A DNA stretch of 64,000 bases from Serpentinicella alkaliphila (GTDB taxonomy: Bacteria > Bacillota > Clostridia > Peptostreptococcales > Natronincolaceae), in assembly GCF_018141405.1 (NCBI RefSeq), contig NZ_CP058648.1:1069001-1133000 (forward strand). Reading direction: 5' to 3'. Under the pieces are notes generated by a model. That model saw only the letters and a list, made by a program, of their open reading frames with translations, did not search any database and had not been told where the DNA came from. The number at the start of each line of letters is the position of its first letter. Position 1 is the stretch's first letter. Below are positions 32,601 to 35,280 of this stretch, piece after piece. The position numbers and the translations under genes are program-made.

Positions 32601-32662
32601 CTATAGTATAAAGACCTGCTTCTATAGGAGCATGAATAATTTACTAGAAAGCTAAAATGTGG

Positions 32663-32668
32663 TATAAT
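32663..32668 (+). promoter_or_regulatory. Probable -10 element of the agr-like operon
   Basis: TATAAT preceded by TGTGG, close to an extended -10 form, about 55 bases before agrB. No clear -35 is present. Confidence 0.5.
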
Positions 32669-32723: not shown

Positions 32724-33326
32724 ATGATTAGAGAAAAGGCTAATTTCATTAATAAAATAGCTGAAGAACAAAAGTTAAGTCGTGATGATACAGAAGTGAT
32801 TCTATTTGGATACAATTTATTAGTTAACAGTATTCTCGGCTTTGTTTCAATCTTGGGAGTAGCCTATATTTTAGGCATATTTCTAACGGTTTTAGTAGCT
32901 ACGATAACTGCAGCATTTTTTCGGGCTTTTACTGGGGGGGCACATGCAAACAGCCCTACTAAGTGTATCCTATTTGGAGCCTGCATTTTTAATTTACTAG
33001 GTTTAATAACTGTTCATTTAAACAATGCTATTTCAAATACAAATTACATAGGAACATTGTTTATTATGGTGATTAGCATTGCGGTCATTAGTTTTTACTT
33101 ATATGCACCGGCAGATGCACCGGGAAAACCTATAACTGCCAAGGTACATAGAAAAAAATTGAAGACATTAGCATTTATTTCTCTTTTAATTTGGGGTATC
33201 TTTATGATGGTTTGCTTTAGGGGAGCGACCATGCCACAGCAGCTTGTTTTAGCCAGTTGCTTAGGTTTGATTTGGCAAAGTGTATCACTATGGCCAATAA
33301 CTTATATGTTATTTGGGCACAAATAA
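32724..33326 (+). CDS. agrB: AgrB-like peptide cyclase/protease
   Basis: A 200-residue membrane protein with about five to six helices. FRAFTGGAHANSPTKCILFG (about 72-91) holds the catalytic His and, seven residues on, Cys of AgrB proteases. AgrB removes the C-terminal tail of AgrD and joins the new carboxyl end to a side chain to make a cyclic (thio)lactone. The 40-codon agrD lies 18 bases downstream. The ribosome binding site is weakly placed. Confidence 0.95.
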   Translation: MIREKANFINKIAEEQKLSRDDTEVILFGYNLLVNSILGFVSILGVAYILGIFLTVLVATITAAFFRAFTGGAHANSPTKCILFGACIFNLLGLITVHLNNAISNTNYIGTLFIMVISIAVISFYLYAPADAPGKPITAKVHRKKLKTLAFISLLIWGIFMMVCFRGATMPQQLVLASCLGLIWQSVSLWPITYMLFGHK

Positions 33327-33344: not shown

Positions 33345-33467
33345 ATGAAAAAGAAATTAGTTTCTTTATTTGTAACTCTATTGACTTTTTTAGCTCTAAC
33401 TAATGTGGCAGCAGCATCAACTATAACGTTTTATCAACCAGAATTACCAAACAAGTTTAAAAAATAA
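33345..33467 (+). CDS. agrD: AgrD-like cyclic lactone autoinducer precursor
   Basis: A 40-residue peptide with ATG behind TAGGGGGAAT, right after agrB. It has the AgrD plan: an amphipathic N-terminus (MKKKLVSLFVTLLTFLALT), a small-residue stretch (NVAAA), the autoinducer core STITF with Tyr, and the conserved C-terminal recognition tail QPELPNKFKK. Clostridial AgrD peptides of the CLWFT type align here with Ser in the place of the ring Cys, so the product should be a five-residue lactone, not a thiolactone. Confidence 0.88.
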   Translation: MKKKLVSLFVTLLTFLALTNVAAASTITFYQPELPNKFKK

Positions 33468-33490: not shown

Positions 33491-33946
33491 GTGATTTTCT
33501 TAAGCAACTTTATACATGCATGGTTTTTTTGTCTTGCTCCCTTAAGTTTTTTAAACTATAGGCCTGAAAGAAGGCAACATTTGATTTTCACATTAATTTA
33601 TGGCTGTTCAGTATATCTTTCTAGAAGAATATATGAATTTTTACCTGTACCATTTGGTACCCATACATTTATTTTAATATTAATTAGCATAATACTATTT
33701 ACATACTTGTGTAAAATATCAGCTAAGCAGAGTATTATTATGACAGTAATTGTATTTATAGTATTAATACTTGCAGATGGTATGATCAGCTTACCGGTTA
33801 TGAATTTACTAAATATAACGATGAAATCATATGAGGAAAACATTCTACACAGGGCGATAGCTTTAGGCTTAGGCATTGTTCCTTTAGTAACAATGGTTTT
33901 AGTAGGTAGACTTATTAACATGAAAAAGGTATTGTTAAGAGCTTAG
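33491..33946 (+). CDS. Small polytopic membrane protein of the agr-like locus
   Basis: A 151-residue protein with four or five membrane helices and no soluble domain. GTG start behind TTTAGGAGGAA. It lies between agrD and the sensor kinase gene, 23 bases from each. Canonical AgrC has six or seven N-terminal helices; the kinase next door has only two, so this protein may be the missing part of a split peptide sensor. That is inference: I do not recognise a family. Confidence 0.8.
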   Translation: MIFLSNFIHAWFFCLAPLSFLNYRPERRQHLIFTLIYGCSVYLSRRIYEFLPVPFGTHTFILILISIILFTYLCKISAKQSIIMTVIVFIVLILADGMISLPVMNLLNITMKSYEENILHRAIALGLGIVPLVTMVLVGRLINMKKVLLRA

Positions 33947-33968: not shown

Positions 33969-34901
33969 ATGCTATTGAAAAAAATAACCAAATGGCTGAA
34001 AAGTTTTACTACATTAGAAGTTTATATATTAATATTGCTATCGCAAATATTTATTTCTCTTTTAGCAGTAATGCATTACTGTTATAGAGAACTTGGACTT
34101 TATGTAGATTACTATGAAACTATTCCTTCAAGTTACTTGGTTATTTCACTTTTATTATTAAGCGGTTCAATAGGAGGCCTAGGTCTTTATTGGTTTAAAG
34201 AGATGAATTCAATAGCTGAGCAGGAAAAGACATATGAACTTCAGGATATAAAACTACGTCAAATGCAAGAAGCTAATGATCTACTTAGCTCACAAAAGCA
34301 CGATTTTTTAAACAGTCTACAAGTTATTTGGGGATTAGCGTTAATTAATGATCGGGATAAGGCCGTAAGTTATATTCAGAAACTTACCAATGATTTGAAA
34401 ACTGATAAGATAGAAATTTCAGAAATTAATAAAGAGGAGCATCCATACTTATATACTCTATTAATAAATAAACTTCATAAATGTAAGGACTCAAATATTG
34501 ATATGGAATTGAATTTATATGACTTACAACGTTTAAGTGCTATCAACCCCATAGATTTAGTGAACATCTTTGGAAATTTAATTGATAATGCAATTTACGA
34601 AGTAAAAAAACTACCAGTGGAATATAGGAAAATTTGTATCGATATATACGAGGAATATGAGGATATAAACATTGAAATTTTTAACAAAGGGCCCAAAATA
34701 GAGCGACATATTATGGATAAAATGTTTCAGAGGGGATTCACAACTAAGGGTGAGGAAGGCACAGGGATTGGTCTATATAATGTCAAAAATATTGTTGAGA
34801 AATACGGTGGATCTATAGAGGTTGTTAGCGATGAGGAATACGGTACAAACTTTATAATTAGATTCAAAAATGTAAACCTTATGTACACAGAAAGTAACTA
34901 A
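33969..34901 (+). CDS. AgrC-like sensor histidine kinase (HPK10 type)
   Basis: A 310-residue kinase with two N-terminal membrane helices (about 17-38 and 55-75), a helical linker and a short HisKA-like segment with SSQKHDFLNSLQVI (His111), as in AgrC/Spo0B-type proteins. The ATPase domain has NLIDNAIYEV (N-box, Asn207) and GEEGTGIGLYNVKNIVEKYG. AgrC detects the extracellular cyclic peptide. The usual LytTR response regulator AgrA does not follow: a terminator and then nifJ come next. Confidence 0.9.
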   Translation: MLLKKITKWLKSFTTLEVYILILLSQIFISLLAVMHYCYRELGLYVDYYETIPSSYLVISLLLLSGSIGGLGLYWFKEMNSIAEQEKTYELQDIKLRQMQEANDLLSSQKHDFLNSLQVIWGLALINDRDKAVSYIQKLTNDLKTDKIEISEINKEEHPYLYTLLINKLHKCKDSNIDMELNLYDLQRLSAINPIDLVNIFGNLIDNAIYEVKKLPVEYRKICIDIYEEYEDINIEIFNKGPKIERHIMDKMFQRGFTTKGEEGTGIGLYNVKNIVEKYGGSIEVVSDEEYGTNFIIRFKNVNLMYTESN

Positions 34902-34911
34902 AGCGTTTACA

Positions 34912-34944
34912 AAAAGTCAATTGAATGAAAGTTGACTTTTTTTT
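34912..34944 (+). terminator. Intrinsic terminator of the agr-like operon
   Basis: AAAAGTCAA and TTGACTTTT form a nine-pair stem followed by more T. Confidence 0.88.
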
Positions 34945-35280
34945 ATACACTTTTAGGAAATATTTAACGTGCTTAATTTTATAACTTTGTGTTATAATTA
35001 TGTTGCATATTTAGTATCTAATTATATTAGATTACTGAACAAGTGTAAAACCTAATGATTTCAGTACTTATACGTATATAGCCCTATAATTGTAGACAAC
35101 ACAGGGATATCTAATATTAAAAAATAATTGCAATTTTCAAACTAAATCGTTTATAATGGGATGTATATGAAATGTTATTTATTTTGGCATTACATTAACG
35201 TGTAAGTACCAAGATTGTTTGTTCTGTCTAAATTTGAGATAGAAATATCCACTAATTTAAAAAATAAGGGGGAAATACAC
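34945..35280. other. Upstream region of nifJ
   Basis: No gene seen. Two TATAAT boxes are present, at 34993-34998 and 35152-35157; the second has TTGCAA 18 bases upstream (35128-35133) and is the better promoter candidate. No Rex-type TTGTTAA(N4)TTAACAA palindrome is visible. Confidence 0.5.

Follow-up and report, generated by a model that had tools for sequence, protein, structure and literature searches.

Which signal would be made from an AgrD precursor that carries serine instead of cysteine in the ring-forming place, and which protein would sense it? The question is raised by a locus in the window, i.e., the whole 64,000-nucleotide stretch of Serpentinicella alkaliphila DNA analysed here. 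We consider it likely, based on sequence comparisons, that agrB, agrD, a membrane protein gene designated X and a kinase gene form one quorum-sensing operon, and that X and the kinase together would act as a two-protein receptor for its predicted serine lactone.

The probable agrB-agrD-X-kinase operon

The features of the locus are as follows:

32640..32668, forward strand: weak promoter-like site upstream of agrB (TTTACT-17-TATAAT, TG before the -10)
32724..33326, forward strand: agrB, membrane endopeptidase/cyclase of 200 aa (PF04647, E 1.1e-39)
33345..33467, forward strand: agrD, 40 aa (TIGR04223; alignment of 21 AgrDs)
33417..33431, forward strand: codons of the predicted lactone STITF (tca act ata acg ttt; position by alignment)
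33491..33946, forward strand: X, membrane protein of 151 aa, GTG start at 33491
33969..34901, forward strand: sensor kinase of 310 aa with SPOB_a (PF14689, E 5e-13) and HATPase_c (PF02518, E 3.4e-18) domains
34911..34946, forward strand: probable operon terminator, AAAAAGTCAA...TTGACTTTTTTTT, a T-rich hairpin after the kinase gene, read from the sequence

The 40-aa frame is, judged by sequence, a real agrD with Ser25 in the ring position. Its translation, MKKKLVSLFVTLLTFLALTNVAAASTITFYQPELPNKFKK, comprises a leader (residues 1–24) with an AAA end, the ring residues S25-T26-I27-T28-F29 and the tail YQPELPNKFKK. The sequence-only reading of this DNA had placed an AgrD gene after agrB and a serine instead of cysteine in its ring-forming place, and both claims hold: the product scores 36.3 bits with TIGR04223 (curated cut-off 19; E 4.5e-9) downstream of a PF04647 agrB, and in Cys-type relatives the residue aligned with Ser25 is Cys. 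Ala24, Tyr30-Gln31-Pro32 and Pro35 are invariant in all 21 aligned AgrDs, which argues against a chance occurrence, and the ring-nucleophile place before the YQP motif, taken here by Ser25, is occupied by Cys, Ser or Thr in relatives. The gene begins after a gap of 18 bases from the agrB end (33326), and a ribosome-binding-site-like AGGGGGA can be read just 5' of its ATG.

The AgrB protein combines its PF04647 score with the catalytic His and Cys and the supporting Arg and Gly. These residues (R67, G72, H74, and C81) are invariant across 17 aligned homologues, and their spacing is that of R70, G75, H77, and C84 of S. aureus AgrB, reported as necessary for peptidase activity (PMC10196373). No PDB sequence matched AgrB.

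The operon is completed by the 151-aa X and the 310-aa kinase, both absent from the sequence-only reading. The kinase possesses two apparent membrane helices, and its H111, invariant in the alignment, lies within QKHDF of the SPOB_a domain. In the promoter scan, sites such as that upstream of agrB were no more numerous than in shuffles. The terminator scanner demands three G-C pairs, and the hairpin at 34911..34946 is therefore unlisted by it. No response regulator gene was found in the operon, nor next to it in G005 and G016, the close relatives inspected. The kinase gene is followed, at 35215, by a gene that appears from its sequence to encode a 2-oxoacid:ferredoxin oxidoreductase-like protein of the pyruvate:ferredoxin type; the same neighbor follows the operon in both relatives, which points to vertical inheritance.

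Only two AgrD genes in the whole 3.26-Mb S. alkaliphila genome score above the TIGR04223 cut-off, that at 33345..33467 included. A second agr locus (L042, G000:C1, about 407–411 kb) encodes AgrB, AgrD and an AgrC-type kinase with SPOB_a and GHKL domains. In contrast to the STITF operon, it possesses a Cys-type AgrD (CWGFYHQP), a full-length AgrC of 448 aa and a 243-aa regulator-like gene, the product of which resembles the LytTR type in sequence. It is thus probable that S. alkaliphila produces two signals, a thiolactone and a lactone.

Ring residue among related AgrD proteins

Among 148 related genomes searched for orthologous operons, the nearest AgrBs (48% identity) were found in G005, G016 (Alkaliphilus sp.) and G019, with the AgrD rings STVIS, STVLS, and STVLS, respectively. 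Together with S. alkaliphila they form a supported AgrB clade of four (SH-aLRT 98). A local Cys-to-Ser mutation is rejected, since the three nearest orthologous operons keep Ser. The alignment of related AgrDs, which the sequence-only reading had proposed as a check, thus gave serine rather than cysteine in the nearest relatives, while AgrDs outside this group carry any of Ser, Thr, and Cys.

For our ring census, we drew on sampled genomes of both the order and the phylum, plus named contigs, which gave 123 distinct AgrB-AgrD pairs. The AgrB homologues were recovered by an alignment-based contig scan; a scan with a single AgrB sequence matched none. Cys occupies the ring position in 87 pairs, Ser in 28 and Thr in eight, these counts describing pairs picked by similarity and not population frequencies. 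Threonine rings are encoded, among others, by Geosporobacter ferrireducens (TTITS), Peptoclostridium litorale (TSIAA), Sporosalibacterium faouarense (TSVIA), and a Thermincola bin (TGSNG). We observed Thr-ring AgrDs beside an intact agrB in L012, L015, L017, L047, L050, L058, L100, and L102. From these sequences we predict that Thr-type AgrDs would give rise to threonine lactones; no description of threonine-closed AgrD peptides was found in the open-licence literature.

On the AgrB tree, a quick one in which 40 of 120 inner branches are weak, the three ring states require 20 changes or more, against a mean of 33 after shuffling, and Cys versus Ser/Thr at least 15. Supported branches alone account for at least seven changes for Ser and at least four for Thr. 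The ring-closing atom has switched many times while the AgrB peptidase residues stayed unchanged. Several AgrB columns were associated with the ring atom before tree correction; independent pairs on supported branches (five usable pairs) gave no signal.

Ser-type AgrDs with the rings SWxTW or STWFW were also observed in Desulfofundulus, a Desulfovirgula bin and an Armatimonadetes bin (L059, L060, L062, and L063), the gene order common to these loci being X-kinase-agrB-agrD. The Armatimonadetes case may represent transfer or misbinning.

Protein X and the sensor half of AgrC

Protein X has no family in Pfam or NCBIfam. Its AlphaFold2 model (pLDDT 85.6) is composed of five long helices and one short. 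Nothing convincing came from a comparison with PDB folds: the best E from Foldseek was 2.5, and the top Z score, 4.9, extended across half the chain. A missing match in itself proves nothing. A profile of 106 X proteins matches columns 12–156 of a profile built from 16 AgrC-type kinases of full length, among them the 448-aa AgrC from the second agr locus of S. alkaliphila, with a probability of 96.9% (E 1.3e-10), and the kinase profile matches columns 169–453 with a probability of 100%, so that together they cover AgrC in order. The controls gave 0.5% (AgrB-AgrC) and 0.8% (X-AgrB), and the 13 X proteins of the S. alkaliphila operon type, taken alone, still matched AgrC with a probability of 93.9%. 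In the reverse search, an HMM of the AgrC sensor was run on 929 ORFs. At E 1e-3 it recovered 23 X proteins but, of true AgrCs, no more than two; shuffled X yielded none at this threshold. A natural fusion was also detected: in L137/L220, agrB-agrD is followed by a gene encoding a 463-aa SPOB_a kinase, residues 56–188 of which match the X model (1.5e-8). As the X-AgrC identity is low (14%, a remote match), the assignment rests on profiles, order and fusion together. By these comparisons, X looks like the detached N-terminal sensor half of AgrC, the receptor being split in two genes.

By these profiles, X is homologous to the sensor and the kinase to the remainder of AgrC, as would be expected of an AgrC receptor made up of both. 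Canonical agrBDCA systems, in contrast, have a single-chain AgrC and an AgrA-type regulator in the operon; here, sensor and kinase are located on separate ORFs (33491-33946 and 33969-34901) and the operon holds no such regulator. In the proposed mechanism, X would supply helices 1–5 of the AgrC sensor, while the kinase would add the last helices, the phospho-accepting His111 domain and the ATPase; both proteins would sense cyclo-STITF, and phosphate would pass from H111 to a regulator encoded elsewhere, unlinked to the operon.

The X gene is found beside agrBD in most sampled loci. The agrB-agrD-X-kinase order occurs in 35 of the 123 loci and X-agrB-agrD in 43, the remainder being variants. 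For several X-agrB-agrD loci the reading was extended to wider flanks, and in two of them agrD is followed by a GGDEF and HD gene with an apparent N-terminal membrane part (L214:6579-8273 and L215:7369-9054); in a third, L219, the gene after agrD is of the same size and has a similar start. The sequence of these GGDEF-HD genes suggests a link of agr sensing to cyclic-di-GMP. Two tandem X genes precede agrB in L127, L128, L165, and L180. Separately, an AgrC-type kinase frame at G006:C23:17786-19081 is interrupted by a single in-frame TAA and may represent a broken gene.

X could instead be an accessory protein acting, e.g., in export, immunity or leader removal, with the kinase alone sensing the lactone, a role compatible with the lack of a named family, with the frequent position of X directly before agrB with no kinase found alongside, and with the loci in which a GGDEF-HD protein, not a kinase, comes after agrD. 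We regard it as rather unlikely, however, given that in profile comparisons X matches the AgrC sensor domain specifically and collinearly while the controls are clean, that a fused X-kinase occurs in an agrBD locus and that the kinase itself has just two apparent membrane helices.

In a broader view, which we find plausible and doubtful in equal measure, many clostridial agr systems, that of S. alkaliphila among them, would use a two-protein receptor, i.e., the detached sensor X and a separate output protein, and the rings of their signals would be freely interchangeable among the thiolactone, serine-lactone and threonine-lactone types. In that case, X would fill the receptor gap in several clostridial agrBD loci. 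The receptor of clostridial agr systems is often unsettled, and the X idea makes this question directly testable. Upstream of agrB in C. perfringens strain 13 lie two hypothetical genes that are co-transcribed with agrBD; of three plasmids, the sole one restoring function included both of them (PMC2706048).

The predicted lactone and known systems

According to the proposed mechanism, AgrB would cleave the Phe29-Tyr30 bond of AgrD, keeping Phe29 as a thioester on Cys81. The hydroxyl of Ser25 would then attack this thioester and close a five-residue lactone, and a signal-peptidase-like protease would cut after Ala24, directly before the ring residue, to release tail-less cyclo-STITF. All 36 Ser/Thr AgrDs carry Tyr after the ring and Pro two residues further on, and 32 of them have Ala directly before the ring residue, a pattern which fits leader removal right at the ring with no tail. 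We infer that AgrD yields cyclo-STITF, a pentapeptide lactone closed between Ser25 and Phe29 and devoid of a tail, with a calculated [M+H]+ of 550.287 (568.298 for the linear form); the five-residue Ser-Thr-Ile-Thr-Phe lactone put forward in the sequence-only reading stands as the best prediction.

The ring might instead close via Thr26, retain an N-terminal tail or rearrange to a cyclic amide. Thr26 has a hydroxyl too, and in a tail-less Ser lactone a free amino group lies next to the ester, so that an O-to-N rearrangement is chemically conceivable. Ser25, however, is the residue aligned with Cys throughout. Moreover, a Clostridium thermocellum peptide with the same positions is reported to be a lactone that matched a synthetic standard (PMC5322536), and we consider any such other closure unlikely. 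Very unlikely is a decayed or drifting Ser-type agrD devoid of a cyclic product in S. alkaliphila: Cys is the commoner ring residue (87 of 123) and the lactone is a prediction, but Ser is kept in four orthologous operons, and the frame, its flanks and the AgrB catalytic residues are all intact.

Serine-lactone rings such as that predicted for S. alkaliphila are already known elsewhere. Their restriction to a few staphylococci, claimed in the sequence-only reading, is contradicted by GBAP of Enterococcus faecalis, a Ser lactone (PMC7028047; PMC12312760), and by the serine lactone of C. thermocellum (PMC5322536). What seems new here, within the limited evidence of an open-literature search, is the proposed split AgrC receptor and the repeated exchange of Cys, Ser, and Thr, threonine included; no description of either was found in the open-licence literature.

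The Staphylococcus agrBDCA systems have in common with S. alkaliphila the AgrB and AgrD families and the AgrB catalytic residues, and in the Ser-lactone type of S. pseudintermedius, Ser replaces Cys as it does here. They differ in that for S. alkaliphila no exocyclic tail is predicted, AgrC appears to be in two pieces and the operon is devoid of agrA. The fsr/GBAP system of E. faecalis provides a Ser lactone outside staphylococci, as predicted for S. alkaliphila; yet, GBAP has a nine-residue ring with a two-residue tail, in contrast to the predicted five-residue, tail-less ring, and FsrC is a single-chain kinase. In Cys-type clostridial agr loci of the X-agrB-agrD order, X adjoins agrBD as well, whereas a thiolactone is predicted there and a GGDEF/HD gene comes next in some. 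The closest peptide is that of Clostridium (Acetivibrio) thermocellum Clo1313_2818, reported as a tail-less S25-F29 pentapeptide lactone, confirmed by LC-MS/MS against a synthetic standard and cut after A24, with Y30 and P35 as landmarks (PMC5322536). Compared by these reported landmarks, A24, S25, F29, Y30, and P35 bear the same numbers as in the S. alkaliphila AgrD. The C. thermocellum gene is reported to lie outside an apparent agr operon and to lack a neighboring agrB, whereas in S. alkaliphila agrB, X and the kinase gene adjoin; the likeness is thus one of peptide, not of operon.
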